Of a stretch of DNA of 64,000 nucleotides, positions 1 through 20,267 are shown piece by piece. The stretch's first letter is position 1; each line of letters starts with the position of its first letter. The notes beneath the pieces were generated by a model. The model was not told where the DNA came from. It ran no database searches and worked only from the letters and a program-made list of their open reading frames with translations. The translations under genes were made by a program, and so were the position numbers. The DNA is from Rhizobium sp. BT03 (lineage in GTDB: Bacteria; Pseudomonadota; Alphaproteobacteria; Rhizobiales; Rhizobiaceae): positions 382,820-446,819 of the forward strand of contig NZ_CP125643.1 of the NCBI RefSeq assembly GCF_030053155.1, given 5' to 3'.

Positions 1-1
1 T

Positions 2-1911: not shown

Positions 1912-1948
1912 CCCACAATAAACCGATTGAAATTTTTTGCTGTTTGCA

Positions 1949-1963
1949 GACAATCGGGTTGTC
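1949..1963. promoter_or_regulatory. Possible GntR autoregulatory inverted repeat
   Basis: GACAA-5 nt-TTGTC perfect inverted repeat about 70 bp upstream of the gntR start. It carries the same GACA/TGTC half-sites as the seven operators listed elsewhere, but the spacing is wider. Autoregulation is an inference. Confidence 0.4.
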
Positions 1964-2754: not shown

Positions 2755-2768
2755 TTGACAGATTGTCT
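2755..2768 (+). promoter_or_regulatory. Operator/promoter copy A (upstream of hydrolase)
   Basis: TTGACAGATTGTCT, the consensus form of the repeated site. The core GACA-GAT-TGTC at 2757-2767 is a palindrome, and its first six bases form a perfect sigma-70 -35 box. CTTACC lies 17 bp further on as a weak -10. It is 83 bp upstream of the alpha/beta hydrolase start. Confidence 0.72.
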
Positions 2769-2850
2769 GAAAATCTGCTTACCTCTCTTATGGGAGGTGA
2801 GACACAGGAAGTGCGGCTTCCCAACAACATCATTTTGTTAGGGAGGACGT

Positions 2851-4080
2851 ATGGGCGCCCATGCCGAGCTGATTAAACGCGTAACCCTGGCGATCGAAGA
2901 TCCGGAGCTACCGCGACTGACCCCAGGTCTTACAACACGGATCTCGTTGCAAGTTGGACCAGAAAAGTCATCACTTGCTGTGGGAGGCGGGATAGTCGCA
3001 CTGGACGGCGCGGACGAAAATGCTGACGTCATACTGAGTGCCCCAGAAGGAGCTTGGGAAAAGGTTATGCAGGTGCCGCCGCCGGCAACCTACCATTCGT
3101 TCACCGCCTTTCAACTCGCTAACCCTGAGTTCACGTTATCTGGTTCGCCCGTAGCAATCGCTCAAGCGCGTCCCGCTCTGGAGCGACTGTTCGAAATCGT
3201 CGTAGCGTCTCCGCCCCTAGTTGCGCCGAAGGTCGATCGAAATATTGAACAGGTCACCGGACGCTATAAGCGGGTAGAGGTCGGCGGCGTAGAACACGAT
3301 ATCTTTTACGAGGAAGCCGGTGCAGGAACTCCTATCCTTTTCCTCCATACGGCTGGCGCAGACGGCCGTCAGTTTCTACCGCAACTCTCCGACACTGGGT
3401 TTGCGCGTACGAACCGATTGATCTCAGTTGATCTGCCGTTTCACGGACGTTCGATGCCTCCTTTAACTTGGGACGGCTCGCCCTATCAACTCACAACGGA
3501 TCTCTACCTGACCTGGTGCACGGCGATACTCGACCAGCTCGTCGGAGACAGAGCTATCGTCGTTGGAGGATCTATGGGCGCGGCGATGTGCATGGTGCTG
3601 GCGGCGGAGCGACCGGAACGTCTAATGGGTGTAATTGCGGTCGAGCCGCCGTTGAAGTCAAAGGGCCGTCGCAACCCCTTTCAACACAACGTCAACGTTC
3701 ATGGGTCGCTTCATAACTCAGCCTATGTCCGCGGAATCATGAGCCCGCTCAGCCCGCAAGAAGAGCGACGCCGCGCCAGTTGGATCTACTCGCAGGGTGC
3801 TCCTGGAGTTTATCCCGGCGATCTTTCGTTCTACAGCGACGAGTTCGACGGTGCCGTCGTCGGTCCGAAGATTGATGCCAAGCGAACACCGACCGTTCTT
3901 CTCTCCGGGACCTATGACTACTCTGCGACGCCTGCAGACGGAGCAGCGCTAGCGGCCCTCATTCCTGGCAGCCGTCATGTCGTTATGGAGGGGCTTGGGC
4001 ACTTTCCGATGTGCGAAAATCCTGACTATTTCCGGAGCTTCTTGCAAGACGCTATTCGGTTCGTCGAAGATAACGGCTGA
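2851..4080 (+). CDS. Alpha/beta hydrolase with extra N-terminal domain
   Basis: 409-residue hydrolase. The C-terminal part (about 140-405) is an alpha/beta-hydrolase fold with oxyanion strand FLHTAGADGRQF and nucleophile elbow GGSMG (Ser near residue 241). The likely acid is in GTYDYSA and the catalytic His in EGLGHFPM. The first ~120 residues form an additional domain that looks SCP2-like, with a hydrophobic-ligand-binding appearance; that assignment is tentative. Ester, lactone or C-C hydrolysis of a pathway intermediate is possible. It stands alone behind operator copy A with a GGAGG ribosome site, so it should be induced with the other operons. A broken IS256-type element follows immediately. 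Confidence 0.85.
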   Translation: MGAHAELIKRVTLAIEDPELPRLTPGLTTRISLQVGPEKSSLAVGGGIVALDGADENADVILSAPEGAWEKVMQVPPPATYHSFTAFQLANPEFTLSGSPVAIAQARPALERLFEIVVASPPLVAPKVDRNIEQVTGRYKRVEVGGVEHDIFYEEAGAGTPILFLHTAGADGRQFLPQLSDTGFARTNRLISVDLPFHGRSMPPLTWDGSPYQLTTDLYLTWCTAILDQLVGDRAIVVGGSMGAAMCMVLAAERPERLMGVIAVEPPLKSKGRRNPFQHNVNVHGSLHNSAYVRGIMSPLSPQEERRRASWIYSQGAPGVYPGDLSFYSDEFDGAVVGPKIDAKRTPTVLLSGTYDYSATPADGAALAALIPGSRHVVMEGLGHFPMCENPDYFRSFLQDAIRFVEDNG

Positions 4081-4108
4081 TCACAAAGCAACCGCGTTGG
4101 CCATTTAC

Positions 4109-4141
4109 CGATCGTGTCCCAGTACGTGGCGTAGGTGACGG
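4109..4141 (+). repeat. Left terminal inverted repeat of the IS256-type element
   Basis: Begins CGATCGTGTCCC and aligns with the reverse complement of 5389-5421 with about six mismatches over 33 bp. Confidence 0.75.
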
Positions 4142-4269
4142 TAGGGAGTAAAGCCGAGCGCCCGCGCGCTTCTCGTTGCGCTGTAGCGGGTGATCGGCTT
4201 TGCGGGCGGCCATCAGTGTTTTCCGCTAGGGTCGGGTTGTTCAAGACCAACCTGACGGAAAGATCACCG

Positions 4270-5313
4270 ATGACCAATGACATGATGAACGTGCGCTCCC
4301 TTGTTGAGAAGAGTGCCGATGCAGATTTGTTGCGTGAGATGATTGGCTTTGCCGCCGAGCGGCTGATGGAGTTGGAGGTCGGCTCGGCTACGGGTGCTGA
4401 CTTCGGTGTGAAGAACCCCATGCGGCTCACTCAACGCAATGGCTACCGTGACCGCGATTGGGAGACGCGGGCTGGCACCGTCGAGCTTCGCATTCCGAAG
4501 CTGCGCAAAGGCAGCTACTTTCCGAGCTTCCTTGAACCGCGCCGCATGGCAGAGAAAGCTCTGACGGCCGTTATCCAGGAAGCGTATATCCAGGGAATCT
4601 CGACTCGTTCTGTCGACGACCTGTGGTGGATGCGACCTATCTCAAGGTCCGGCGTGGCGGCCGCATCGTCTCAGTCGCCGTCATTATCGCGGTCGGCGTC
4701 AATAACGACGGTCGGCGCGAGGTCCTGGGTATGGAAGTTGGCACCTCGGAGGCCGAACCGATCTGGACGGAATTCCTGCGCAGGCTAACGCGCCGCGGTC
4801 TACGCGGGGTGAAGTTGGTTGTCTCTGATGCACATGAGGGCATCAAGGCTGCCGTTTCCAAGGTTCTCAATGCCACTTGGCAAAGGTGCCGGGTTCACTT
4901 CATGAGGAACGTGCTCGCGCATGCTGGAAAGAGCGGCAGGCGGGTCGTATCCGCCTTCATCGCGACGGCCTTTGCCCAGGAGACCCCGGAGGCAGCAAGC
5001 CGCACAATGGCGCAGTGTCGCCGATCAAATCAGGCCGAAAGTGCCGAAGCTTGCCACCATCATGGACGACGCTGAAGAGGACGTGCTCGCCTACATGACC
5101 TTCCCGAAAGAGCACCGGGCAAAGCTGCACTCGACGAATCCAATTGAGCGTCTCAACGGCGAAATCAAGCGACGCACCGAGGTCGTCGGCATCTTTCCGA
5201 ACGACGAAGCCATCGTCCGTCTCGTCGGCGCACTGCTGCTCGAACAGAATGACGAATGGGCCGTTCAACGCGCCAAGTATATGACGCTTGAGACCATGGC
5301 CCAAATGAGATGA
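4270..5313 (+). pseudogene. IS256-family (mutator) transposase, disrupted
   Basis: Transposase remnant in three pieces. Frame 1 from ATG 4270 runs to the motif STRSVDDL near 4620. The match then continues in frame 3 at VDATYLKVR (first catalytic Asp), with roughly 40 expected residues missing, so an internal deletion also broke the frame. A second shift near 4995 returns to frame 1, which carries SVADQIRPKVPKLA and ends in STNPIERLNGEIKRR (catalytic Glu) and LETMAQMR. The middle piece keeps the second Asp in VVSDAHEGIKAA. All DDE residues are still encoded, but no single product can be made, so the element cannot move by itself. Confidence 0.88.
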
Positions 5314-5388
5314 GCCCCAAATCAGCCTGCCCCGCTGTGGCACGCTGATATCCCCTTCCGACCCATGTCGGGAAAGCACGGCCATCAG

Positions 5389-5421
5389 CCGCGACCTACA
5401 CCACCTCCCGGGACACGATCG
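5389..5421 (-). repeat. Right terminal inverted repeat of the IS256-type element
   Basis: Ends GGGACACGATCG on the plus strand, the partner of the left repeat at 4109-4141. Confidence 0.75.
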
Positions 5422-5796
5422 TATCACCTTGTATTCCGGACTAAACTTATGCCGACAGCGTTGCGATAGAGGGCATTCGGAACCAGCATGCGGCTATTCC
5501 GGAAGGTCGGCACTCGCATGACGTCATCTGACCGACATCGTGGGGTTATTCGACAAAAATTGCGAAATGTCCTTGATCCAGTTTCCGCTGTTAGATCTAG
5601 TTGTCGCCGGCAGTCCTTCTCCTTCTCTATCATATTTGCTGGAGCGTGCCGCAAGTCCGACAAGAGCTGCGCCTAGGCCAACAGCTCTGTGCTGTCATTG
5701 ACGGGTTAGGAACACGTCAATGATCAACGAGGCTGGAGCCTTATACCCGGTGTTCCTGCCTCAAATGTAAGGGCATGACGAGTGCCGCCCTTTCCT
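5422..5796. other. Non-coding stretch between IS remnant and SDR gene
   Basis: I see no credible gene. A 9-bp inverted repeat (TCATTGACG / CGTCAATGA, 5695-5723) lies about 75 bp beyond the stop of the minus-strand SDR. It could act as a weak 3' end, although there is no T tract. Confidence 0.5.
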
Positions 5797-6564
5797 TCAC
5801 TTGACCAGGTGGTTTCCGATCGAGGAGCCGCCATCGACCGTCAGAATGCTACCGGTCGCGAACCTCGAACGATCGGACGCAAGAAAAAGCATTGCTTCAG
5901 CAATCTCTTCAGCTGTCCCCATCCGATCCATGACGGCACGGGCGTTGAAATCGCTGCGAAGCTTCGCGGGGTCCTTCGCTTCGGCGAAGATTTTCGTGAA
6001 GTAAGGAGAGTCGATTGTCCCTGGAGCGACCGCGTTGACACGAATTCCCTCTTTCGCATGATCCATGGCCATCGCGCGCGTCAGCGAAGATATTGCTCCT
6101 TTCGATGCTACGTAGGCAGTCCTGTCCGCGATTGCTGAGGTTGCGGTGTAGGAAGTCGTATTGATGATCGAACCTCCGCCGTTCCGTCGCATAACAGGAA
6201 TGACGTACTTTGAGCAAAGGAAGATCCCTTTGACGTTTACGGACATAATCCGGTCCCAAGTTTCTTCAGGAATGGTCACCACATTCCCCGTCGTTCCGAA
6301 CCCGGCATTATTGACGAGCACGTCGACCCGGCCCCACTTTGCGGTCGTCTTCTCAACCATGCTTTCCGCGTCCTTGGCGGACGAGACGTCGACGCGAACA
6401 CCGAAAGCCTTCGAGCCGATCTCGTTCGCCACACGAACCGCGGCGTCTTCATTGACATCAGCAACAACCACATAGGCGCCGTTCTTTGCGAAAAGCTCGG
6501 CTGTCGCACGACCAATGCCGCTGCCGCCCCCTGTGACGATACAAACTCTTTGATTCAAATCCAT
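5797..6564 (-). CDS. SDR-family NAD(P)-dependent oxidoreductase
   Basis: 255-residue classical short-chain dehydrogenase. It has the cofactor loop TGGGSGIG near the N-terminus, NNAG near residue 88, the active-site YVASK near residue 155, and a C-terminal FATGSILTVDGG typical of glucose/3-ketoacyl-type SDRs. ATG at 6564 was chosen over the longer frame because GAGGAG lies just upstream. It is divergent from the flavin reductase gene and shares a promoter region with two operator copies. It probably interconverts an alcohol and a ketone in the same pathway as its neighbours; the substrate cannot be read from sequence. Confidence 0.9.
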   Translation of the reverse strand: MDLNQRVCIVTGGGSGIGRATAELFAKNGAYVVVADVNEDAAVRVANEIGSKAFGVRVDVSSAKDAESMVEKTTAKWGRVDVLVNNAGFGTTGNVVTIPEETWDRIMSVNVKGIFLCSKYVIPVMRRNGGGSIINTTSYTATSAIADRTAYVASKGAISSLTRAMAMDHAKEGIRVNAVAPGTIDSPYFTKIFAEAKDPAKLRSDFNARAVMDRMGTAEEIAEAMLFLASDRSRFATGSILTVDGGSSIGNHLVK

Positions 6565-6607
6565 CGACCATCTCCTCATTTTTGGGTGCCTTAGAAGACA
6601 TTTTAGC

Positions 6608-6621
6608 AGACAATCTGTCAA
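6608..6621 (-). promoter_or_regulatory. Operator/promoter copy B1 (SDR side)
   Basis: Reads TTGACAGATTGTCT on the minus strand and faces the SDR gene. It is paired with copy B2 29 bp away, giving a divergent promoter with one operator per direction. Confidence 0.72.
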
Positions 6622-6635
6622 TTGTGAAAATCCAG

Positions 6636-6649
6636 TTGACAGATTGTCT
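6636..6649 (+). promoter_or_regulatory. Operator/promoter copy B2 (flavin reductase side)
   Basis: TTGACAGATTGTCT facing the flavin reductase gene. The -35 TTGACA is followed 17 bp later by TTTATC as the likely -10. The operator therefore covers the -35 and the adjoining spacer, as expected for repression by steric block. Confidence 0.74.
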
Positions 6650-6698
6650 GCTGATCTGTTTATCTAGGCTCGATCGAATTTGGCCGTGGGAGGACAAT

Positions 6699-7208
6699 AT
6701 GGCCGATACCAGCACTGAGGCGCAGTTGGCTTTTAAGGCAGCTATGCGTCGGTTCACATCAACCATCTGCTTGATCACGACCGAACTCAACGGGGTCCGT
6801 CATGGCATGGCCGCCACCGCGGTCCAGTCGGTTACCGCGGACCCACCAACTGTTCTTGTCTGCATCAACCAATCGGCTTCGGTGAATCAGCCTTTGAAGA
6901 TCTCCGGGAAGTTCGCCGTGAACATGCTGCATCTTTCACATGCCGATCTTGTGCCGCTGTTCAGTGGGCAATTGAAGGGTGAAGAGCGCTTTCATTACGG
7001 CGAGTGGCTGTCTCTCGACGGCATGCCGGTCCTGTCCGATGCGCAGGCGGCGTTTGTCTGCAAGCTAAAAGATGTCGTTCACGTTGGAACGCATGATGTT
7101 GTGCTCGGAGAAGTGCTCGAAGCACGGTTCATCGAGTCAATCGCGCCGCTTCTCTACGAAAACGGTCAACTCGTCAGGTCGTCGTCCATCAGTGGATCGG
7201 CCGCATAG
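6699..7208 (+). CDS. Flavin reductase (HpaC/RutF-type)
   Basis: 169-residue flavin reductase-domain protein. It carries the family pattern near the start (FTSTICLITTELNG, then HGMAATAVQSVTADPP) and the central FAVNMLHLSHADL. Such proteins reduce FMN or FAD with NAD(P)H and hand the free reduced flavin to a partner monooxygenase; RutF does this for RutA. The luciferase-like monooxygenase two genes downstream is the natural partner. ATG 6699 is preceded by GGGAGG. It is the first gene of the operon read from operator copy B2. Confidence 0.9.
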   Translation: MADTSTEAQLAFKAAMRRFTSTICLITTELNGVRHGMAATAVQSVTADPPTVLVCINQSASVNQPLKISGKFAVNMLHLSHADLVPLFSGQLKGEERFHYGEWLSLDGMPVLSDAQAAFVCKLKDVVHVGTHDVVLGEVLEARFIESIAPLLYENGQLVRSSSISGSAA

Positions 7209-7271
7209 TAGGTGGCTTTAACCACCAATCACATCACTCATCGAAAGCCCAAGGGCGGCAAGGAGAAAAGC

Positions 7272-7688
7272 GTGAGCAATATGGCACCCGCAAGAGAAAT
7301 TCATGGACGTGAAGTCACAGAGCGCTTTGAGCGCGGACTAAAGACCCGGCGCGAAGTCTTGGGGGGGGGCTATGTTGATGCGTCGGTCAGCAAAGCCACC
7401 GACTTCAATTGGCCGATGCAAACCCTCGTCACAGAATACTGCTGGGACGCGATTTGGAATCGGCCGGGCCTGGAGCGCAAGCAGCGCAGCATCCTCAATC
7501 TCGGGATGATTTCGGCCCTCAATCGTCCGCATGAGCTGAAACTGCATGTTCGCGGAGCAATCAACAACGGTCTTACCAAAGAGGAAATTCGGGAGGTTTT
7601 CCTCCAGGTTTCGATTTACTGCGGTGTTCCTGCGGCCATCGACAGCTTCCGCGTGGCAGCGGAAGTTTTCGACGAGATGGGCATCTAG
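7272..7688 (+). CDS. Carboxymuconolactone decarboxylase-family protein
   Basis: About 138-residue CMD-domain protein, PcaC-like. It has the characteristic run RSILNLGMISALNR, HVRGAINNGLTKEEI and the C-terminal VSIYCGVPAAID. PcaC decarboxylates gamma-carboxymuconolactone, but many CMD proteins have other functions and no other beta-ketoadipate gene is present here. Start: GTG 7272 follows AAGGAG. An ATG at 7284 is possible, and the in-frame codons back to 7212 lack a good ribosome site. It sits between flavin reductase and monooxygenase, so it likely acts on the oxygenase product or its follow-up. Confidence 0.87.
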   Translation: MSNMAPAREIHGREVTERFERGLKTRREVLGGGYVDASVSKATDFNWPMQTLVTEYCWDAIWNRPGLERKQRSILNLGMISALNRPHELKLHVRGAINNGLTKEEIREVFLQVSIYCGVPAAIDSFRVAAEVFDEMGI

Positions 7689-7748
7689 TTATTCAACGCA
7701 TTTGAGTGGGCTGAGCATCATCCGTTGCCAGCCCGAGGAGGGACTACA

Positions 7749-8870
7749 GTGACCGCACAAGACGATTTCCGCGCTGCCGGAAACCCAATGTTCAATGATA
7801 ACAAGCTCAAGCTCGGCGTATTTGGCACGAATTGCTCGAATGCATGCGCGATTACGCTCGCTGAGACAACGTTCGAACCTACCTTCGACCACAACGTCGA
7901 GATTGCAAAGAAGCTTGAGGCAGCCGGTTGGGAATGCATGGTGCCGATTGCACGCTGGCGTGGTTTTGGCGGTCCTTCAAACTTCAATGGCGTGAACATG
8001 GATACGTTCACCTGGGCGGCCGCTCTCGCGGCGGTCACCACGAAGCTCCAGTTCTTCTCAACGACTCACATTCCGACGCTAAACCCGATTGTTGCAACCA
8101 AGATGGCGACAACAATCGATCACATCTCGAAGGGTCGATACGGCCTCAATCTCGTTACCGGCTGGTTCACTCCCGAAATGGAAATGTTCGGAGTTCCTAT
8201 GATGGAGCACGACACCCGCTATGAATACGCCACTGAATGGATGGATATCGTCGAGACGCTCTGGAAACGCAATGGCGTTACCTTCGAAGGCGAGTTCCTC
8301 AAAGTCAAAGACGCCTTCAGTGAACCCAAACCCTACAACAAGGCGGGTCGCCCGCTCCTGATCTGCGCCGGCGCCTCGGGCAAGGGACTGCATTTCACCG
8401 CCAAGTTCTGCGACTTCAACTTCGGCTTCATGCAAGACATGGAATCCGGCGCTGCCTGGGTCAAAAAGGTGAAGGACCTGGCGCGTACTGAATATAACCG
8501 TGATCTTGGCACATTCACAGCTTGCCCCGTTATCGTTCGCGAAACGGAGAAGGAAGCAAAGGAATACTACGACTACTACGTCAACCAGAAGGGTGACTGG
8601 GAGGCATGCGAGAACATCTGTGAAGTTCTGCAGGTGCAATCTCAAAACCATTCTGCCGAAATGTATCAAAAATTCAAGGAACGCTTCGTCGCTGGCTGGG
8701 GTGGATACCCGATCGTCGGCAATCCAGAACAAGTCGCCGACAAGCTCGTGGATCTCAGCAATACAGGCGTCAACGGCGCCTTGCTGACAATGGTCGATTA
8801 CAACGAGGAACTTCCCTTCTTTAACGACCGTGTCATGCCGCTGCTCAAGCAAGCCGGTCTGCGCAACTGA
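7749..8870 (+). CDS. Group C (luciferase-like) FMN-dependent monooxygenase, RutA-like
   Basis: 373-residue bacterial-luciferase-fold monooxygenase that uses reduced FMN and O2. It shares with pyrimidine oxygenase RutA and relatives the motifs ARWRGFGG, NPIVATKMATTIDHIS and GRYGLNLVTGW, then GRPLLICAGASGKG and the C-terminal loop WGGYPIVGNPEQVADKL. GTG 7749 is preferred because GAGGAG is placed correctly before it; an ATG at 7725 precedes that ribosome site. RutA-group enzymes cleave heterocyclic C-N bonds or oxidise heteroatoms through flavin-N5 oxygen adducts. RutB- and RutC-type genes are absent, so uracil is an unlikely substrate. This is probably the key oxidative step of the cluster. Confidence 0.9.
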   Translation: MTAQDDFRAAGNPMFNDNKLKLGVFGTNCSNACAITLAETTFEPTFDHNVEIAKKLEAAGWECMVPIARWRGFGGPSNFNGVNMDTFTWAAALAAVTTKLQFFSTTHIPTLNPIVATKMATTIDHISKGRYGLNLVTGWFTPEMEMFGVPMMEHDTRYEYATEWMDIVETLWKRNGVTFEGEFLKVKDAFSEPKPYNKAGRPLLICAGASGKGLHFTAKFCDFNFGFMQDMESGAAWVKKVKDLARTEYNRDLGTFTACPVIVRETEKEAKEYYDYYVNQKGDWEACENICEVLQVQSQNHSAEMYQKFKERFVAGWGGYPIVGNPEQVADKLVDLSNTGVNGALLTMVDYNEELPFFNDRVMPLLKQAGLRN

Positions 8871-8879
8871 ACCAGTCCT

Positions 8880-8927
8880 CGGGACGGCGATTGCCGTCCC
8901 GACACGAACTCTGCCAGATTCTGGCAG
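8880..8927 (+). terminator. Two tandem hairpins after the monooxygenase gene
   Basis: Perfect 8-bp stem GGGACGGC/GCCGTCCC (8881-8900) followed by CTGCCAG/CTGGCAG (8911-8927) and then GATTTT. The T tract is weak, so this may be a partial terminator or a 3'-stabilising structure that sets monooxygenase and binding-protein mRNA levels separately. Confidence 0.55.
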
Positions 8928-8993
8928 GATTTTCGCGGCTGGCGGCCAAAGGGGCCGGCGGTTGAGCGGAACCACAAGGGGAGGAGGCCCTGA

Positions 8994-10163
8994 ATGCTGA
9001 AGAAAATCGTTGCAGCGCTTTTTACGCTGTCGAGCCTTTATCACATGAACGGCGTGGCGAAGGCTGACGGCCTCGATTCGTTGCCGCCGGACCAAAAGGC
9101 GCTTTACGAGAATATCGATCCCGCCATTCCGCTCGGGGGGACGGTGTACAAAGATTTTGTTCCAAAACGTCCACCGCCGTGGAAAATTGGTTATGCATCC
9201 ACATATGCCGGTAATACCTGGCGCGCGAACATCCTGGACGAATTCACCAACGTATTGCTTCCGAGATATAAGGAAGCAGGCCTAGTCTCCGATCTAATCG
9301 TCACGCAGTCTGACCTCAAAGACGCTGTCCAAATCCAGCAGATGCGGCAGATGGTTGACGACGGTGTTGATGCGATCGTCATTTGCTGCTCGAACATTAC
9401 CGCACTTAACAAGACCATAGAGTATGCTCATTCGAAAGGCGTGCCAGTCTTCTCAGTCTCGGGCTATGTCACATCACCCTACGCAATCAATGCCACAGAG
9501 AATAACACCGACGGTGGCTACAAGGCTGCTGAATGGCTTGCCAAGGAAATCGGTGAAAAAGGCAACGTCCTGATGGTATCGGGCATCCCCGGTTTCGCAT
9601 CATCGGACAGCTTCGACATCGGCGCGAAGAACGCGTTCGATAAATTCCCCGGTATCAAAATTGTAGGCACGATAGCTGGCAAATGGACCGACCAGGTCGC
9701 CCAGGTTGAGGTTCAGAAGTTTCTTGCCACCAATCTTGCTGAGGTTAATGGCATTCTCGTTCAGTCCGCTTCAGAAAACGGTGTCGTGAACGCAGTACAG
9801 CAATCCGGCCGCGACATGATGCCTATCGTGCTCGGGGGTGAGGCTTCGGCAGCCTGCTACTGGCGTAAGAACCCTGATTTCATAAGCAAGAGCTTCCATT
9901 TCTGGCCGCCGCGGTCTGATGCCCGCCTTGTGTGGGACGTCATGATGCGAACGCTCGAAGGCCAGGGACCAAAGATCCAGTCGATTCTTCGTCCTGCGCT
10001 TCCTTACACCATTGATGACGTGAAGGAAGTGCTGAAGGAAGATTGCGATCCCAATTCCACGGATTGGATCGAGCCGAAGAACAACGGCTGGTGGCCTGCA
10101 GACGTCGCTGCAAACTACTTCGAACGTCCTGAAGATCCGTTAGCTTGGCGGCCGAAGAAGTAA
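8994..10163 (+). CDS. Periplasmic sugar-type ABC substrate-binding protein 1
   Basis: 389-residue secreted binding protein of the ribose/TorT-like type (peripla_BP_4 fold). It starts with a Sec signal (MLKKIVAALFTLSSLY, cleavage near VAKADG) and has the typical DGVDAIVICCSNITALNKTI and NTDGGYKAAEWLAKEIGEKG segments. The long region before the first domain and the Trp-rich C-terminus are longer than in RbsB. ATG 8994 follows GGGGAGGAGG. No permease or ATPase is adjacent. It likely shares the importer encoded at 17767-21266, which has its own binding protein, giving two receptors for one transporter or two related ligands. Confidence 0.88.
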   Translation: MLKKIVAALFTLSSLYHMNGVAKADGLDSLPPDQKALYENIDPAIPLGGTVYKDFVPKRPPPWKIGYASTYAGNTWRANILDEFTNVLLPRYKEAGLVSDLIVTQSDLKDAVQIQQMRQMVDDGVDAIVICCSNITALNKTIEYAHSKGVPVFSVSGYVTSPYAINATENNTDGGYKAAEWLAKEIGEKGNVLMVSGIPGFASSDSFDIGAKNAFDKFPGIKIVGTIAGKWTDQVAQVEVQKFLATNLAEVNGILVQSASENGVVNAVQQSGRDMMPIVLGGEASAACYWRKNPDFISKSFHFWPPRSDARLVWDVMMRTLEGQGPKIQSILRPALPYTIDDVKEVLKEDCDPNSTDWIEPKNNGWWPADVAANYFERPEDPLAWRPKK

Positions 10164-10237
10164 TGAATGTTCTCCGGAAGGAGACCTCCCAGCCTCCCGC
10201 GTCGGTTTCTATAATCGGCGCGGGAGGTATCTGCGAT

Positions 10238-11458
10238 TTGATTGGAAATAGTGTGCTGGACTTTCACAGAATTCAACGTTTGCCGCCTTATGTTTTCGAA
10301 CAGGTCAACCGTTTGAAAGCAAGCGCGCGAGCGGGCGGCGCCGATATCATTGATCTCGGCATGGGAAACCCCGACCTTCCCACTCCTCAGTCGATCGTCG
10401 ACAAGCTGTGCGAGGTCGTGCAGGATCCGCGCACCCACCGCTATTCCTCCTCCAAGGGCATTCCGGGGCTGCGCCGTGCCCAGGCCGCCTATTATGCCCG
10501 CCGTTTCGGTGTCAAGCTCAACCCGGATACCCAGGTGGTCGCCACCTTGGGCTCCAAGGAAGGCTTCGCCAACATGGCGCAGGCGATCACCGCGCCCGGC
10601 GACGTGATCCTCTGCCCGAACCCGACCTATCCGATCCACGCCTTCGGTTTCCTGATGGCGGGCGGCGTGATCCGCTCGATGTCGGTTGAGCCGGATGAGA
10701 GCTTTTTCCCGCCGCTGGAGCGGGCGGTCCGGCATTCGATCCCGAAGCCGTTGGCGCTGATCCTCAACTATCCGTCGAACCCGACGGCCCTCGTCGCGAC
10801 GCTCGATTTCTATAAGGACGTCGTCGCCTTCGCCAAGAAGCATGACATCATCGTGCTTTCCGACCTTGCCTATTCCGAGATCTACTTCGACGGCGCTTCG
10901 CCGCCATCGGTTCTCGAAGTGCCGGGTGCAATGGATGTGACCGTCGAATTCACCTCGATGTCGAAGACCTTTTCCATGCCCGGCTGGCGCATGGGCTTTG
11001 CCGTCGGCAACGAGCGGCTGATCGCGGCGCTCACCCGCGTCAAGTCCTATCTCGACTACGGCGCCTTCACGCCGATCCAGGTGGCCGCGACCCATGCGCT
11101 GAACGGCGACGGTTCCGACATTGCGGAGGTTCGCAACGTCTACAAGCGTCGCCGCGACGTCATGGTCGAAAGCTTCGGGAAGGCCGGCTTCGACGTGCCG
11201 CCGCCGGCTGCCACCATGTTCGCCTGGGCAAAGATCCCGGAAAAGTTCCGTCATCTCGGTTCGCTGGAGTTTTCCAAGCTGCTGGTCGAGAAGGCCGACG
11301 TCGCCGTTGCACCGGGTATCGGCTTCGGCGAAATGGGCGACGACTACGTCCGTCTGGCGCTCGTCGAGAACGAACACCGCATCCGCCAGGCTGCGCGCAA
11401 CATCAAACGCTGGCTTAGCGGCGACGAGAAATTTGAAATCAACGTAATGAATCAGTGA
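10238..11458 (+). CDS. PLP-dependent aminotransferase (class I/II, AlaC/AatB-like)
   Basis: About 406-residue fold-type I aminotransferase. It has LGMGNPDLPTP near the start, the substrate/PLP Asn in NYPSNPTA, the Asp in LSDLAYSEIYFDG, the PLP lysine in SMSKTFSMPGWRMGF (near residue 243) and the carboxylate-binding Arg in DDYVRLALVEN. It strongly resembles the chromosomal alanine/LL-diaminopimelate-type aminotransferase of rhizobia. The family homology begins only at about 10259 (FHRIQRLPPYVFEQVN). TTG 10238 follows GGGAGG; GTG 10253 and ATG 10163, which overlaps the upstream stop, are alternatives. From about 10330 the DNA is more G+C-rich at third positions than its neighbours, suggesting a recent chromosomal origin. 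Confidence 0.9.
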   Translation: MIGNSVLDFHRIQRLPPYVFEQVNRLKASARAGGADIIDLGMGNPDLPTPQSIVDKLCEVVQDPRTHRYSSSKGIPGLRRAQAAYYARRFGVKLNPDTQVVATLGSKEGFANMAQAITAPGDVILCPNPTYPIHAFGFLMAGGVIRSMSVEPDESFFPPLERAVRHSIPKPLALILNYPSNPTALVATLDFYKDVVAFAKKHDIIVLSDLAYSEIYFDGASPPSVLEVPGAMDVTVEFTSMSKTFSMPGWRMGFAVGNERLIAALTRVKSYLDYGAFTPIQVAATHALNGDGSDIAEVRNVYKRRRDVMVESFGKAGFDVPPPAATMFAWAKIPEKFRHLGSLEFSKLLVEKADVAVAPGIGFGEMGDDYVRLALVENEHRIRQAARNIKRWLSGDEKFEINVMNQ

Positions 11459-11469
11459 AAGGATACCCG

Positions 11470-11868
11470 ATGCCAATCTTCGGATCATGCCAATGCAAAG
11501 CGGTAACGTACCAGGTTCAGGAAATTGATGGACCCATGTGGAATTGCTTCTGTCAAACATGCCGGAAGTCACACGCCGCTGATCACAATACCGCTGCGAA
11601 GGTGAAAAGCGAGCACTTCAAGATCCTTACAGGCCAAGATACGCTTCATAGCTTCGAATCGACGCCTGGAAAGCTGCGGTGGTTTTGTTCGGTATGTGGC
11701 TCGCACGTTTATGCGGAGCGGCCGGCCAGCCCGGAGCTCAAAGTCGTTAGAGCCGGCACGTTCGATACCGATCCTGGAAGTGTGCCGATGTCAAACGTAT
11801 GGGTATCGCATGCGGAACCTTGGCTCGCCCATGATCCATCGAAGGCAAGCTCACCAGAGTTCCCGTAA
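11470..11868 (+). CDS. GFA-fold (glutathione-dependent formaldehyde-activating-like) protein
   Basis: 132-residue zinc-binding protein of the GFA/CENP-V family. Cys pairs are visible at FGSCQCKAV, CFCQTCRKSH and FCSVCGSHVY, which form the two zinc sites. Characterised members act on S-hydroxymethylglutathione-type adducts, but most are uncharacterised. ATG 11470 is preceded by GAAAGGA; in-frame GTG 11455 overlaps the upstream stop. It is likely co-transcribed with the aminotransferase. A role in handling an aldehyde released by the pathway is conjecture. Confidence 0.82.
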   Translation: MPIFGSCQCKAVTYQVQEIDGPMWNCFCQTCRKSHAADHNTAAKVKSEHFKILTGQDTLHSFESTPGKLRWFCSVCGSHVYAERPASPELKVVRAGTFDTDPGSVPMSNVWVSHAEPWLAHDPSKASSPEFP

Positions 11869-12186
11869 GTGACCGGGATACTACCTGTCGTAACTGAGGT
11901 GGAGCCACGGCGACCGTATATCAAGCGGCAACGCCTCATTCCGTGTCCAGGAGGTTCTAACGCAAACGTGCTGGGTCGGTAAAAGCGGCAGGGATTGCAG
12001 ACAGTAGGTGCGCTTGCACGGCGAGCCCACCCATTGAGAGAATAAAGTCGTACGAGACAGAAGACTTCTGCGAAGCAATCCAGCCTTCGAGGTTGGGAAA
12101 TTACGGGTTGTGAGGGCTCAGGACACCGCAGGACTATTTTTGCCCCCACGGGTCCTCAACGACCTCCATTGCGGTGTGAGTGAAAA
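11869..12186. other. Non-coding stretch before the FMN reductase gene
   Basis: No recognisable gene on either strand. The open frames here show no family motif. The 3' part carries the promoter and weak operator copy F. Confidence 0.5.
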
Positions 12187-12200
12187 TTGTAAGATTGTCT
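12187..12200 (+). promoter_or_regulatory. Operator/promoter copy F (weak)
   Basis: TTGTAAGATTGTCT, two mismatches from the consensus site, 28 bp before the FMN reductase start. It keeps the GATTGTCT half. It would place ribBA and the FMN reductase under the same regulator, probably with lower affinity. Confidence 0.5.
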
Positions 12201-12228
12201 TATGCGAGAATGTTGGGAGTCCTGTGAC

Positions 12229-12747
12229 ATGAAAGTTGTTGTAATAACGGGGAATTTATCGCGCCCCTCGAAAACCCGGGCCGTAGCAGACTTCATGGTG
12301 GATCGGGTGCGCGCGTCCGGCAACGAAGCAAGCTGCTGGGACCTTGTCGACCTTCATCCGCACCTTGGGGCAACAGTGTTGCCCTCCAGCGCCGCTGAGA
12401 TTGTTAAAGCGGCACTCAACGATATTTTGGCTAGTGACGTGCTAGTTGTTGGTAGTCCGGTCTACAAAGCATCTTACACTGGGTTGCTGAAGCATTTATT
12501 CGACCTTGTCGACATGAAAGCGCTTAAGGGCCGCTATGTGATCCCTTTTGCAACCGGTAAAGCATCGAGTCACAAGCCGCTCGTCGAAGCCTCGATGGAA
12601 GCCTTATTCGACTTTTTCGAAGCGCAAATACATAGCCGTTTCATTTTCGCTCTCGATGAAGATTTTCAGAACGATGCTCTTTCTGAGAACCTGCGCGCGC
12701 TTGTCGACAGAGAGCTCGATGCCGCGCGTCGCGCCGTCAGCCCATAA
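12229..12747 (+). CDS. NADPH-dependent FMN reductase (SsuE/MsuE-type)
   Basis: 172-residue flavodoxin-fold FMN reductase. It has the N-terminal phosphate loop GNLSRPSKTRA, the family signature VVGSPVYKASYTGLLKHLFD and the following PFATGKASSHKP. SsuE and MsuE supply FMNH2 to two-component monooxygenases. This is the second, structurally unrelated flavin reductase of the cluster. ATG 12229 was chosen over the upstream ATG 12202 because family homology begins at KVVVITGN. The ribBA start is 17 bp beyond its stop with a strong GGAGGAGG site, so the two genes form one operon that makes and reduces flavin. Confidence 0.9.
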   Translation: MKVVVITGNLSRPSKTRAVADFMVDRVRASGNEASCWDLVDLHPHLGATVLPSSAAEIVKAALNDILASDVLVVGSPVYKASYTGLLKHLFDLVDMKALKGRYVIPFATGKASSHKPLVEASMEALFDFFEAQIHSRFIFALDEDFQNDALSENLRALVDRELDAARRAVSP

Positions 12748-12763
12748 TAAGGAGGAGGATTCC

Positions 12764-14044
12764 ATGTCTTTTTCGAGCATAGATGAGGCGATCGAGGCGA
12801 TCGAAGCGGGCGAGATGGTTATCGTGGTCGACGACGAAAACCGGGAGAATGAAGGCGACCTAGTCGTTGCTGCCGAAAAAATAACAGCTGAGCACATCGC
12901 TTTCATGATGAAATATGCGAGAGGCCTTATCTGCGTGCCACTTCCAGCCGAACGTCTCGACAAACTCGAGATCCCCCTGATGGTCACACGTAATTCGGAC
13001 TCACTGCAGACGGCATTTACCGTTTCCGTCGATTGCAAACACGGCACAACGACAGGGATTTCAGCCGAAGATCGAGCAGCAACCGTCAAGTCGCTCATCG
13101 ATCCGCAGACGCGGCCGGAAGACCTATCGCGACCGGGTCACATTTTTCCTTTGCGTGCAAATCGTCTCGGTGTCCTGGGCCGTCCTGGCCACACCGAAGC
13201 TGCCGTGGATCTTGCACGACTTGCCGGCCTGGCGCCGGCTGGCGTAATCTGCGAGATCGCCAATGACGACGGAACCATGTCTCGACTGCCAGATCTCGAG
13301 AAGTTCGCAATCGAACATGGCCTGCACATAGTAACGATCGACGCTTTGATTGAGTACTGCAGGAGTCGTGATACGAGGGTAAAGCGTTACGCGCAGTCCT
13401 TTATGCCAACGCGGTTTGGGGATTTCAAGGCAATTGCTTATCGCGATAGTTTGACGGGAACGGAACACTTAGCTTTGACACTTGGCGAGTTGTGCGAGAA
13501 GGAAGACGTTCTGGTACGGGTGCATTCTGAATGTCTGACAGGTGAGGCGTTCCGGTCCATGCGATGCGACTGCGGTCAACAGCTCGAAATGGCTCTTCGG
13601 GCGGTCCAGTTAGCGGGCGCTGGTTGCGTGATCTACATGCGTGGGCAAGAGGGGCGTGGCATTGGCTTAGGAAACAAAATTGCGGCTTACAGCCTGCAGG
13701 ATCATGGTCGTGATACTCTTGAGGCAAATCGGGAACTCGGCTTCGCATCTGATTCCCGCGAATATAACGCAGCGGCGGATATCATCCGCGACCTCGGTAT
13801 CGGCAGCGTTCGGCTTCTGACCAACAATCCTACAAAAATAGAGGCGCTGCGAACGTCAGGCGTCATCGTGTCGTCTCGCCAGAGTCTGATCGCCGCATCT
13901 AGCGCGTCCAACATCACTTATTTTAAGACAAAGCGCGATCGGTTTGGCCACCTGTTGGACCAGGACACGTCAGCTGAACACGTCGGCCGGAGCAACGTCT
14001 TTTCAGTGTTTGGCGCGCAGGTGTTCTCTGGACCCCTTGGATAA
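12764..14044 (+). CDS. ribBA: Bifunctional DHBP synthase / GTP cyclohydrolase II
   Basis: 426-residue fusion catalysing both entry steps of riboflavin synthesis. Residues 1-200 are 3,4-dihydroxy-2-butanone-4-phosphate synthase, with the acidic loop VVDDENRENEGDLV and GHTEAAVDLARLAG. Residues from about 207 are GTP cyclohydrolase II, with zinc cysteines in SECLTGEAF and MRCDCG, then GQEGRGIGLGNK and LLTNNPTK. Both active sites appear intact. No FMN riboswitch precedes it. Expression instead follows the FMN reductase promoter, so this looks like a pathway-dedicated, FMN-insensitive extra copy that raises flavin supply for the monooxygenase. An analogous coupling is known for rib genes in lux operons. 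Confidence 0.93.
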   Translation: MSFSSIDEAIEAIEAGEMVIVVDDENRENEGDLVVAAEKITAEHIAFMMKYARGLICVPLPAERLDKLEIPLMVTRNSDSLQTAFTVSVDCKHGTTTGISAEDRAATVKSLIDPQTRPEDLSRPGHIFPLRANRLGVLGRPGHTEAAVDLARLAGLAPAGVICEIANDDGTMSRLPDLEKFAIEHGLHIVTIDALIEYCRSRDTRVKRYAQSFMPTRFGDFKAIAYRDSLTGTEHLALTLGELCEKEDVLVRVHSECLTGEAFRSMRCDCGQQLEMALRAVQLAGAGCVIYMRGQEGRGIGLGNKIAAYSLQDHGRDTLEANRELGFASDSREYNAAADIIRDLGIGSVRLLTNNPTKIEALRTSGVIVSSRQSLIAASSASNITYFKTKRDRFGHLLDQDTSAEHVGRSNVFSVFGAQVFSGPLG

Positions 14045-14227
14045 CGGAGCCGCCCTCGCCACTTACCTGCCGGTGATTGTAGGGGGCCGCCTTTGACCGG
14101 CAGAGTCCTAGAGCTTTTGCGTGGGCCCTGCCAGCACATCATTCGTGCAGGCCTATCGGAGTGATGTGGCCCGCGATTGCATCGAAAGCAGCGTTCGACC
14201 ATATCTCGTCTTGAGCACGGCTGTTCC

Positions 14228-14255
14228 GACGGATCGCATTTAATCGCGGTCCGTC
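14228..14255 (+). terminator. Rho-independent terminator after ribBA
   Basis: 10-bp stem (GACGG and CCGTC outer pairs, CGC/GCG inner, one wobble) with an 8-nt loop, followed by TTGTCTTT. It lies between convergent ribBA and the minus-strand dehydrogenase. Confidence 0.7.
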
Positions 14256-14280
14256 TTGTCTTTCGAAAAGTCTCGCAAAA

Positions 14281-15387
14281 CTAATGCTTCATGCGAAGGA
14301 TCGGCTTAATGACTTTGCCGCTCTCGGAATCAGCCATCGCCTCGTTGATCTGGTCGAGGTCATAGAACTGAACCAGTTTGTCGAACGGGAAAAGTCCCTG
14401 CTGCCAATACTCGATCAACTGCGGGACGAACTCGGACGGAACGCTTTGTCCTTCGACAACGCCGATCAATGTGCGGCCGAAAAGGAAGTTCCCGATATCG
14501 ATCGTGCCTTCAGTGCCGAGAGCGGACGAGCCAACGAGACCGCATGTTCCCGGCGTACCAAGGCAGTCGACTGCCTGACGGAAAACTCGCGGCGAACTCG
14601 TGCATTCCAAGCTGAAATCAACGCCTGCGGGGACGATCTTCCTGATCGCGGCAACGCTGTCCAATTTGCGGGCATTTATCGTGTGCGTCGCCCCGAGTTC
14701 GCGCGAAAGTTCCAGCCGTTCATCGTTCAAGTCGATCACGATGATGGTCGCGCATCCGGCGATTTTCGCGGCCATCGTAGCCGCCATGCCAACCGCACCA
14801 GCACCGAACACTGCTATTGACGAGCCGGGCTTCGGCTTGAGGCAATTCAGTACCGCGCCAGCACCGGTCTGAAGCCCGCACCCGAGCGGTCCGATCAACT
14901 CGAGTGGAACATCCTTTGCAACCTTCACGGCGTTTCGTTCGCTGGCGATGGCGTAGGTTGCAAATGACGACTGCTCGAAGAAGCAGCCACTAATCTGTTT
15001 CCCGTGAGAATCATGGATCGGGCAGGTGCCATCCGGACGAGTGCCGCGGAAATTGCGACCGAAGAAGTCCTCGCAGTAGAAAGGTGTACCGGAAAGGCAC
15101 TTTTCGCACTTGCCGCAATAGGCGTAGCTCAAAGCAACGTGATCACCGGGCACAAGATCTTTAACTGCGCTCCCGACGGCCTCGACGACGCCAGAGCCTT
15201 CGTGTCCCAACACAACAGGTTGAGGTACGTCATATCCCTGGTCCCTGACCACCAGGTCGGTATGACATACCCCCGATGCGACGATGCGGACCAAAATCTC
15301 GTCTGCACGAGGTTCCTCAATCCCTATGCACTCCAAGATCAAGGGCTTCGCCTTTTCGCGCGAGACCGCCGCATATGCCTGCTTCAT
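14281..15387 (-). CDS. Zinc-dependent alcohol dehydrogenase (aryl-alcohol dehydrogenase-like)
   Basis: 368-residue medium-chain dehydrogenase. It has GVCHTDL and GHEGSG (catalytic zinc), CGKCEKCLSGTPFYC (structural zinc) and GAGAVGMAATMAAK (NAD binding). The LGCGLQTGAGAVLN segment and the long insert before it resemble benzyl-alcohol/geraniol dehydrogenases of the XylB group. Start is ATG 15387, behind GGAGG; the longer frame to 15417 adds unconserved residues. It is a single-gene unit under operator copy D and is closely related to the dehydrogenase at 21325, so the cluster keeps two paralogues of this subgroup. Confidence 0.9.
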   Translation of the reverse strand: MKQAYAAVSREKAKPLILECIGIEEPRADEILVRIVASGVCHTDLVVRDQGYDVPQPVVLGHEGSGVVEAVGSAVKDLVPGDHVALSYAYCGKCEKCLSGTPFYCEDFFGRNFRGTRPDGTCPIHDSHGKQISGCFFEQSSFATYAIASERNAVKVAKDVPLELIGPLGCGLQTGAGAVLNCLKPKPGSSIAVFGAGAVGMAATMAAKIAGCATIIVIDLNDERLELSRELGATHTINARKLDSVAAIRKIVPAGVDFSLECTSSPRVFRQAVDCLGTPGTCGLVGSSALGTEGTIDIGNFLFGRTLIGVVEGQSVPSEFVPQLIEYWQQGLFPFDKLVQFYDLDQINEAMADSESGKVIKPILRMKH

Positions 15388-15440
15388 GTAACTGTTCCTC
15401 CAAGGCTCACAACGCAATTCGCGCGAACGTACTCATCGTC

Positions 15441-15454
15441 AGACAATCAGTCAA
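15441..15454 (-). promoter_or_regulatory. Operator/promoter copy D (dehydrogenase)
   Basis: Reads TTGACTGATTGTCT on the minus strand, one mismatch from consensus. TACGTT lies 17 bp beyond the -35 part. It is about 54 bp upstream of the dehydrogenase start. Confidence 0.68.
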
Positions 15455-15749
15455 TAATTACTCTAAAATTAGATCAGTTCAACCGGAGCAGGGCTGCATT
15501 TTTGCAAAGTCACGAGTGAACGCTGATTTGAAGTGATCAAAGGGTTCCGATGCATGTTCGAAAGGGAGCATGCGTCTTGTCCCGCTTTGGGCTGAAAGAT
15601 CGGCTGACGAAAATTTAGTAGCAACGTGTGAGGCGAGCCGGATGGCGTCGCTTGCCGACGTCGAGCCGGTTCTGAAGGCTATCGACAGCTTCGAGACACC
15701 GGTATTGCCAAGTTCAACCGACTACAAACGATGCTACTGCCAGCCAGGC
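15455..15749. other. Non-coding stretch between dehydrogenase promoter and phosphatase gene
   Basis: About 295 bp in which I find no supported gene. An 89-codon plus-strand frame here overlaps the end of the phosphatase gene and has no family features. Confidence 0.5.
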
Positions 15750-16379
15750 TTAACAGACAGTACCAACCAGGACGTTAGTCTTCTCGATGATCGAGAGGTC
15801 CGACGCAATCCGGTATACAGTTGGCGCGGCGGTCGGTGACTCAATAGCGAGCGTATCCTGGATCGTGAGGCGTTCGATGCCCTGCTTTAGTGACCTGATC
15901 GTATTCCCGTGGGCCACCACAAGAACCGATTTCCCTCTCAACAAGGGGGGGAACACTTCGCTTATCAAAAAGGGCAGAACCCTCGCGCTTATGTCCCGTA
16001 TGCTTTCTCCCCCAGGTGGTGGAGTGCTGTACGAGCGGCGCCAAACCTGGACAACATCCTGGCCCCACCGCTCACGTGCCACGTTCTTGTTGATGCCGGT
16101 GAGCTGTCCGTAGTCGCGTTCGTTCAACTCGGTTCTCCTGATTGGCTCCAGCAGATCGCCGTTGGTTTCGTTCAAAATCGCTCTGCAAGTGTCGACTGTG
16201 CGCAAGAGGGCAGAGCTAAACGCAATATCGAACGAGATGCCGAGGTTCGCGAGCAGTGAGCCGGCTCGCCTGCTCTCAGACCAGCCCTCCTGTGTGAGCG
16301 GCACGTCGCTCGTACCCGTGAACTCCCCGCGCGCGTTCCCTTCGCTTTGGCCATGCCGGACAATCACCAGAGTGGACAT
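15750..16379 (-). CDS. Phosphoglycerate mutase-like histidine phosphatase
   Basis: 209-residue histidine-phosphatase-superfamily protein closest to dPGM (GpmA) of alphaproteobacteria. It has the catalytic loop VRHGQSEGN near the start, TELNERDYGQLTG (catalytic Glu), PPGGESIRD and the second His in VVAHGNTIRSLKQG. Length fits bacterial dPGM. In GpmA the signature is usually RHGxSxWN; here Gly replaces Trp, which is common in rhizobial GpmA. Its promoter carries operator copy E, so it is probably induced with the pathway. It could be an extra glycolytic mutase or a phosphatase for a phosphorylated intermediate. Confidence 0.82.
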   Translation of the reverse strand: MSTLVIVRHGQSEGNARGEFTGTSDVPLTQEGWSESRRAGSLLANLGISFDIAFSSALLRTVDTCRAILNETNGDLLEPIRRTELNERDYGQLTGINKNVARERWGQDVVQVWRRSYSTPPPGGESIRDISARVLPFLISEVFPPLLRGKSVLVVAHGNTIRSLKQGIERLTIQDTLAIESPTAAPTVYRIASDLSIIEKTNVLVGTVC

Positions 16380-16427
16380 TCATAACCCTCCCATCGATTT
16401 AGCGAACACGAATATTGTCGCACCATC

Positions 16428-16441
16428 GGACAATCCGTCAA
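16428..16441 (-). promoter_or_regulatory. Operator/promoter copy E (phosphatase)
   Basis: Reads TTGACGGATTGTCC on the minus strand, two mismatches from consensus. ACAATA lies 17 bp beyond the -35 part, a good -10. It sits 49 bp upstream of the phosphatase start. Confidence 0.62.
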
Positions 16442-16505
16442 GTGCGACTATGTGCAAGTGAAAACAAAACGATGTCGAAAAAACAAACGTCGAAGTTTAT
16501 ATTTA

Positions 16506-16519
16506 TTGACAGATTGTCT
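16506..16519 (+). promoter_or_regulatory. Operator/promoter copy C (ABC transporter operon)
   Basis: Exact TTGACAGATTGTCT about 115 bp upstream of the binding-protein start, with TACCAA 17 bp beyond the -35. It is oriented toward the transporter operon. Confidence 0.72.
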
Positions 16520-16634
16520 GATAGCTCATACCAATGCACTCCGCCGTATTGAGGAGAGTCCGGCACGGCTTGGGAAGGCAAGGCTCTCGCCTTAACAGAC
16601 AATGCCGCCCAGAGCGGCCGGAGGAGGAATTTTC

Positions 16635-20262: not shown

Positions 20263-20267
20263 AAGAA

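Follow-up and report, generated by a model that had tools for sequence, protein, structure and literature searches.

A repeated motif on the symbiotic plasmid of Rhizobium sp. BT03 as candidate operator of a paralogous GntR pair

The 64-kb stretch of Rhizobium sp. BT03 DNA analysed here (the window) is the terminal part of C4, a 446,819-bp symbiotic plasmid in a 6.9-Mb bean-rhizobium genome, and it carries one short motif in the promoters of a catabolic gene cluster and of the teu importer genes. These repeats are in all likelihood the binding sites of two paralogous FCD-type GntR proteins, encoded by gntR1 in the window and gntR2 elsewhere on C4, which would govern a regulon linked to bean exudate. 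Judged by sequence, the motif is very probably a GntR operator. Coordinates marked C4 refer to the whole plasmid and all others to the window. The first 20 kb of the window was 100% identical to bean-rhizobium plasmids and 99.8% identical to p42d of R. etli CFN42.

Motif copies and shape of the candidate operator

All seven motif places listed in the original prediction were confirmed by letter match. The exact 14-bp form TTGACAGATTGTCT was found at 2755(+), 6608(-), 6636(+) and 16506(+), with one mismatch at 15441(-) and with two at 12187(+) and 16428(-). Every copy faces the nearest downstream gene, as had been claimed, and the seven places head seven transcription units where six had been counted. 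The corresponding 27-bp candidate operators lie at 2755..2781 (+) in the promoter of an alpha/beta hydrolase gene, at 6595..6621 (-) before a short-chain dehydrogenase/reductase (SDR) gene, at 6636..6662 (+) before a run of flavin reductase, carboxymuconolactone decarboxylase (CMD) and luciferase-like (LLM) monooxygenase genes and at 16506..16532 (+) in the teu promoter, all four with the exact 15-mer TTGACAGATTGTCTG. Further candidates were found at 15428..15454 (-) for an alcohol dehydrogenase gene (TTGACTGATTGTCTG, one mismatch), at 16415..16441 (-) for a phosphatase gene (variant CGGATTGTCCG, two mismatches) and, weak with 2 of 14 positions mismatched, at 12187..12213 (+) upstream of a flavin mononucleotide (FMN) reductase/ribBA unit. 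Allowing up to 3 mismatches, the window held 11 matches against 3.6 expected, a number reached by 1 of 100 shuffles. Copies left of the window lay beyond the reach of the original prediction, which also missed a weaker minus-strand copy upstream of gntR1 (CCGATTGTCTGCAAACAGC, 1939..1957). This candidate autoregulatory site is conserved in relatives; in this window alone it matched at 12 of 19 positions and was not significant (p ~0.2). Of 22 representative loci (drawn from about 55 gntR places), 19 have minus-strand GATTGTCTG no more than 250 bp upstream of gntR, which suggests that gntR may be autoregulated.

The symmetry of the site was analysed in 205 site places from 55 sources (the C4 region, 47 of 48 public loci and seven plasmid stretches), giving 101 distinct 40-mers, many of which are orthologous and hence not independent. 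With 10-bp arms, 65% of pairs agreed with a dyad centred on the T of GTC-T-GAY (centre 14), compared with 44% for GACA-N3-TGTC (centre 8), the palindrome originally proposed. A paired change at 16428 had prompted a third dyad, CAGA-TTG-TCTG (centre 10), which ranked between these two at 58%. When only the 13 C4 sites were used, the values for the 27-bp dyad, CAGA-TTG-TCTG and GACA-N3-TGTC were 65%, 69% and 67% with 4-bp arms, 58%, 58% and 52% with 7-bp arms, and 53%, 47% and 38% with 13-bp arms, respectively, so that short arms did not tell the centres apart. GACA-N3-TGTC was set aside as the less likely operator dyad. The 27-bp dyad TTGACAGATTGTC-T-GAYAATCTGTCAA, centred 6 bp downstream of the earlier palindrome, is supported but not proven as the candidate operator; near-complete examples are ATGACAGATTGTCTGATAATCTGTCAAT and TTGACAGATTGTCTGACGATCTGTCAA. 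Site selection looked at the left 15 bases alone and made no use of the right arm. On C4 this arm matched the prediction at 77 of 156 positions, whereas 5000 random sets gave a mean of 36.7 and no more than 57, and no other offset from -3 to +9 exceeded 46.

The earlier palindrome is probably mis-centred. It is intact in the four exact copies and broken at 15441 (GACT), 16428 (GACG) and 12187 (GTAA). The proposed fusion of operator and -35 box was nearly right; the centre was off by 6 bp, and the downstream dyad fits long arms better. Many promoter copies have their -35 box in the left arm and the dyad across the spacer, with the right arm running into a T-rich -10 region. A -10-like sequence about 17 bp past the -35 box, also part of the proposal, held up less well, since several copies have poor hexamers there (CTTACC at 2755, TACCAA at 16506).

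Conservation spans positions 0 to about 28. The possibility that the motif belongs to a larger dispersed repeat was rejected because base composition outside these positions is near random in the 101 distinct sites. C4:356906 and C4:357112 share about 8 extra bases. When seven intergenic stretches were compared with R. tropici, 191 of 270 motif positions were identical against 558 of 1221 outside; sites without an R. tropici counterpart (C4:356906 and window 16428) lower the inside figure and end gaps the outside one, all seven stretches being kept. The operator at 2755 was identical at 26 of 27 bp with flanks at 48 of 102, and 49 of 54 bp were conserved in the divergent pair at 6595-6662.

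Distribution on the plasmid and in relatives

The exact 15-mer occurred seven times in the whole genome, always on C4. Within 2 mismatches there were 14 genome matches, 13 on C4 and one chromosomal, while the plasmid makes up 6.5% of the genome (binomial 5e-15), so good copies do not lie at random positions genome-wide. The C4 matches extend about 90 kb left of the window. The sites left of the window comprise one upstream of gntR2 (C4:356123, minus strand), two between gntR2 and an NAD(P)-dependent oxidoreductase gene (C4:356906 and C4:357112) and one upstream of a CMD gene (C4:358120). Two more (C4:372806 and C4:373558) precede an SDR gene followed by genes for a chemoreceptor, a binding protein and a GGDEF/EAL protein. 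The pair C4:381840/381852 lies upstream of the run of metallo-beta-lactamase-fold (MBL), alcohol dehydrogenase (ADH), lactonase and gntR1 genes, and C4:293186 upstream of a glycoside hydrolase 3 (GH3; beta-glucosidase) gene. We infer that the gene runs below these sites are operons. In total about 12 transcription units on the plasmid bear the motif, weak sites included, one of them being the beta-glucosidase. A plasmid-wide catabolic regulon under a GntR operator, teu included, is very likely, and the predicted regulon exceeds that of the original prediction.

Beside the GH3 site, C4:292806-293189 retains part of a chemoreceptor gene that diverges from the glycosidase gene; over 50 aa this remnant is 88% identical to R. 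tropici. The site matching C4:293186 in R. tropici CIAT 899 lies between the glycosidase gene (94% identical) and an intact chemoreceptor gene, with the motif upstream of the latter.

The original proposal to look for co-occurrence of motif and gntR orthologue in related genomes was borne out, as the same 33 of 148 genus genomes carry both. The exact 15-mer was present in 33 of 33 genomes with a close GntR (E 1e-60 or better) and in 0 of 115 without (Fisher 1e-33), and the reversed-motif control gave 0 of 148. Each of the 33 positive genomes has two or four gntR copies. Genome G406 (C13, C14, C30, C42, C45) has four together with 14 exact sites, resembling two complete sets, and R. chutanense C5 has four gntR loci (L084, L093, L111, L119). 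In a family sample of 394 genomes the exact 15-mer occurred in 8 and the reversed control in none (0/394). GntR1 relatives at E 1e-50 or better were found in 20 of these genomes; the 15-mer was present in 7 of 7 with a GntR of at least 69% identity versus 1 of 387 others, and in 0 of 13 with only 44-47% relatives.

In public genomes, 46 of 48 gntR loci hold a site within 2 mismatches; one of the two without is a 39% match that is no close relative. A copy just past gntR or in its divergent upstream region was found in most divergent relatives examined. Shinella and Agrobacterium rubi have it in the divergent upstream region; in Ensifer, Pararhizobium, two Agrobacterium plasmids and an uncultured Rhodobacteraceae genome (63%) it follows the gntR stop at a distance of 10 to about 40 bp. 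In A. rubi an exact site separates a 57.6%-identical gntR from a flavin reductase gene, and the importer is annotated as a different type. R. tropici has sites at its hydrolase, SDR, flavin reductase, MBL, ATP-binding cassette (ABC), oxidoreductase, CMD, ADH and teuB genes, the counterpart of the teu-promoter operator (16506) being L188:21042. TTGACTGATTGTCTG is also upstream of the R. tropici orthologue of the window's alcohol dehydrogenase gene (L188:20561) and of an alcohol dehydrogenase gene in A. tumefaciens A74a (L184:25390), in the latter case alike by annotation. In Sinorhizobium fredii NXT3, TTGTAGGATTGTCTGATAAT precedes the gene of a reductase 74% identical to the window FMN reductase.

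Regulators, proposed mechanism and alternatives

GntR1 (2032..2721, plus strand, 229 aa; RHE_RS29975 in R. etli CFN42 p42d) is an FCD-type, FadR-like GntR protein (Pfam GntR 4.7e-20, FCD 8e-27). Its N-terminal helix-turn-helix (HTH) domain scored 71.4 bits against a cutoff of 27 (PF00392), and its C-terminal FCD domain 94.6 bits against 24.3 (PF07729). About 29 kb upstream of gntR1, C4 also carries the paralogue gntR2, whose product is 73% identical. Both genes are flanked by the motif, and their candidate operators look alike. The HTH stretch GVGRTS[VI]REA was identical in 28 of 28 distinct GntR proteins, although stretches of this sort are common among GntR-family members. In the GntR tree a type-2 group of 10 rows was supported (100/99), and the order among the others is unsure. 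For each of the Agrobacterium plasmids A74a and HAMBI 105 the plasmid search gave a single close gntR place, both in the type-2 group and adjoining a run of gntR, oxidoreductase, CMD, hydrolase, importer and succinate-semialdehyde dehydrogenase genes. Type 2 may therefore be the older module, with type 1 added in bean rhizobia.

In the proposed mechanism a GntR1 or GntR2 dimer would sit on the 27-bp dyad across the -35 box and spacer. Because the dyad has the -35 box at its left end and runs on through the spacer to the -10 region, such a dimer would keep RNA polymerase out. In the uninduced state this would silence the units serving uptake (teu and a second importer), oxidation (LLM monooxygenase, flavin reductases, dehydrogenases and SDR), hydrolysis and the cleavage of glycosides, and probably the gntR genes as well. 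Induction would come from a plant compound, or a product of its breakdown, that binds the FCD domains and releases the GntR proteins. Both paralogues presumably bind the same sites. Because teu is reported to be induced by exudate, the ligand may be a bean-exudate compound, and exudate induction would then pass through GntR. Simple repression is plausible from the position of the sites in the promoters.

Several results weigh against the proposal that the repeats are operators of the GntR pair. On the 13 C4 sites CAGA-TTG-TCTG was ahead of the 27-bp dyad with 4-bp arms and equal to it with 7-bp arms, the 27-bp dyad being favoured by longer arms only, and the right arms are weak at C4:356906 (2/12) and C4:399325 (3/12). 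The exact site C4:372806 is followed by about 900 bp without a clear gene, C4:373558 lying nearer the SDR gene. There were 62 genome matches at exactly 3 mismatches to the 15-mer, 8 on C4; the 54 off-plasmid ones compare with 31 whole-genome matches of the reversed control at up to 3 mismatches, an excess that may reflect composition or weaker sites. In L125 (67%) and L126 (63%) the site lies about 450 bp and about 1.6 kb from gntR, respectively, and the Acidisoma locus (L127, 59%) has no site within 2 mismatches, a weaker CGGATTGTCTGTCAATCGG being found 50 bp upstream. Genome G282 of the family sample has one 15-mer copy without such a GntR, taken here as chance. The protein searches scored 7 (family) and 19 (genus) first-look candidates per genome. 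Because gntR and the sites travel on the same plasmids, their co-occurrences are not independent events and another linked factor could account for them.

The original prediction attributed the sites to one factor, most likely the FadR-type regulator at 2032. Its link to an FCD-type GntR was upheld by the co-occurrence and by the sites beside gntR, but a single factor fits poorly with a paralogue flanked by the same motif. That one GntR protein alone binds the sites and its paralogue has another target is unlikely in our view. Such a division would suit the position of gntR1 within the cluster of the window and the greater divergence of the FCD regions (70% identical) than of the HTH regions (85%), yet the same motif also heads the gntR2 operon, and it is present on A74a and HAMBI 105 with their single close type-2 gntR place. 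On A74a it also precedes alcohol dehydrogenase and sugar-type importer genes, an arrangement like that of the window by annotation. It is quite unlikely that the GntR proteins act here as activators or dual regulators; the weak -10 hexamers in several copies would agree with activation, but the site overlaps the -35 box and spacer, and a protein bound there is expected to block polymerase.

That the motif is bound by some other regulator, such as a LysR protein or the AraC-type protein at C4:371481, is very unlikely. The electrophoretic mobility shift assay (EMSA) oligonucleotides in a study of a Pseudomonas LysR-type protein (PMC6422896) contain ATTGTCTGACAAT, and the core is therefore no proof of GntR; against such a regulator, gntR is the regulator adjoining the site in the Agrobacterium, Shinella and A. 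rubi stretches. The A74a stretch also has an annotated AraC-family gene about 7 kb from gntR. Still more improbable is a shared strong promoter element, -35 box plus spacer, that is no operator at all. TTGACA is the -35 consensus and most copies lie upstream of genes, but promoter use needs neither a conserved spacer nor a dyad, and none of the 115 genus genomes lacking the regulator has the exact 15-mer. Before the CMD gene CAGACA (R. tropici L188:10435) or TTGGCC (A. tumefaciens L183:15690) replaces TTGACA while GATTGTCTGATAATC is kept.

Target genes, teu and relation to known systems

At the left edge of the window, downstream of the operator C4:381840, are the genes of a zinc-dependent alcohol dehydrogenase (1..1117, plus strand, starting just left of the window; annotated in p42d) and, upstream of gntR1, of an MBL-fold hydrolase (1117..1911, plus strand; Pfam Lactamase_B 2.6e-16) annotated in the N-acyl homoserine lactonase family. 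The latter scored far below the lactonase model cutoffs, and so it may instead cut a lactone of the pathway. The alpha/beta hydrolase is encoded at 2851..4080 (plus strand; Pfam Abhydrolase_1 1.9e-18) and the SDR oxidoreductase at 5797..6564 (minus strand; Pfam, and NCBIfam NF004791 above its cutoff). Between them, 4135-5313 holds fragmented transposase-like reading frames; no gene is annotated between their counterparts in R. tropici. The divergent run comprises a RutF-like flavin reductase (6699..7208, plus strand; Pfam Flavin_Reduct 7.5e-34, TIGR03615 below cutoff), a CMD family protein (7281..7688, plus strand; Pfam CMD 5.6e-21) and a RutA-like LLM flavin-dependent monooxygenase (7749..8870, plus strand; TIGR03612 E 9.4e-58, below cutoff).

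A periplasmic sugar-type binding protein follows (8994..10163, plus strand; Pfam Peripla_BP_4 5e-37). It is 83% identical to an R. tropici protein encoded near an ATPase and permeases under their own operator; these partners are missing at this place on the plasmid, and a 67%-identical binding protein is encoded in the gntR2 run. An NAD(P)H-dependent FMN reductase (12229..12747, plus strand; Pfam FMN_red 1e-22) and a zinc-dependent (aryl-)alcohol dehydrogenase (14281..15387, minus strand; family model; 88% identical to R. tropici) were placed from the CIAT 652 annotation with starts mapped by offset. A phosphoglycerate-mutase family protein (pgmY, 15750..16379, minus strand) is annotated in CIAT 652.

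By sequence, the importer at 16.6-21.3 kb is teu, with gene names and order taken from CIAT 652. It consists, on the plus strand, of teuB for the substrate-binding protein (16635..17723) and teuA for the ABC ATPase (17779..19308), both mapped by offset from the CIAT 652 annotation, and of the permease genes teuC1 (19321..20262; annotated in CIAT 652 and an open reading frame) and teuC2 (20259..21266; an open reading frame, annotated with a longer end in CIAT 652). R. tropici teu is among the closest known systems: the order teuB-A-C1-C2 is that named in CIAT 652, the same motif stands upstream, and identity to CIAT 899, computed for teuB, is 92% over 362 aa. The R. tropici teu locus for bean-exudate uptake was reportedly described by Rosenblueth et al. 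in 1998.

Passages in PMC3557214 state that teu is induced by bean exudate and required for competitiveness in R. tropici, and according to PMC4125696 the symbiovar phaseoli strains CFN42 and CIAT652 carry it on their symbiotic plasmids and Mim1 lacks it. For R. phaseoli Ch24-10 in bean exudate, a passage in PMC8581550 gives raised expression of ABC transporter genes earlier reported as exudate-induced in R. tropici. The passages citing the 1998 work concern induction, uptake and nodulation competitiveness and name no regulator, nor is a teu regulator named in the literature surveyed, as judged mostly from titles and passages. A literature search with the motif letters gave no rhizobial study by title among the matches listed.

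The FadR operator core is GTC-N-GAC, and palindromic sites near the own gene and targets are typical of the subfamily. GntR1 shares the GntR HTH and FCD domains with the FadR/FCD subfamily, and its solved GntR-family relatives by sequence are 7xp0, 3ihu and 4p9f (McbR). It is only distantly related to FadR, through the HTH region (E ~1e-5 to 2e-6), and differs in the longer arms of its candidate operator (27 bp), in a mostly G/T mismatch 3 bp from the centre and in two paralogues that seem to share one operator. RutA and RutF of the Rut pyrimidine pathway are the best models of the window's LLM monooxygenase and flavin reductase. Their scores, 196 bits against an equivalog cutoff of 498 and 122 against one of 255, were far too low, and the partners here are a CMD protein, an SDR, MBL proteins and an aminotransferase. 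For the substrate of the two enzymes, the family-model search gave sub-cutoff neighbours only.

Among the matches listed (60 of 65), plasmid records with a GntR of at least 78% identity named Phaseolus as source in 40 of 45 cases and no plant in 5 of 45, in a sample biased to bean isolates. S. fredii isolated from beans also has the GntR, and relatives of 70-80% are present in strains without a shown bean link as well. Tentatively, and with some doubt, the GntR pair can be pictured as a bean-exudate sensor that reads two ligands through different FCD domains and one shared operator. It would join uptake, catabolism, cleavage of glycosides and lactones and chemoreceptor-guided swimming to the root in a module on the symbiosis plasmids of bean-nodulating Rhizobium and Sinorhizobium.

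The inducer becomes searchable through a defined operator candidate, a pair of possible sensors and some twelve target units. The promoter set is common to a plasmid block found in bean symbionts of different species, and the motif very probably brings about joint expression of genes for uptake and breakdown of a substance released by bean roots.

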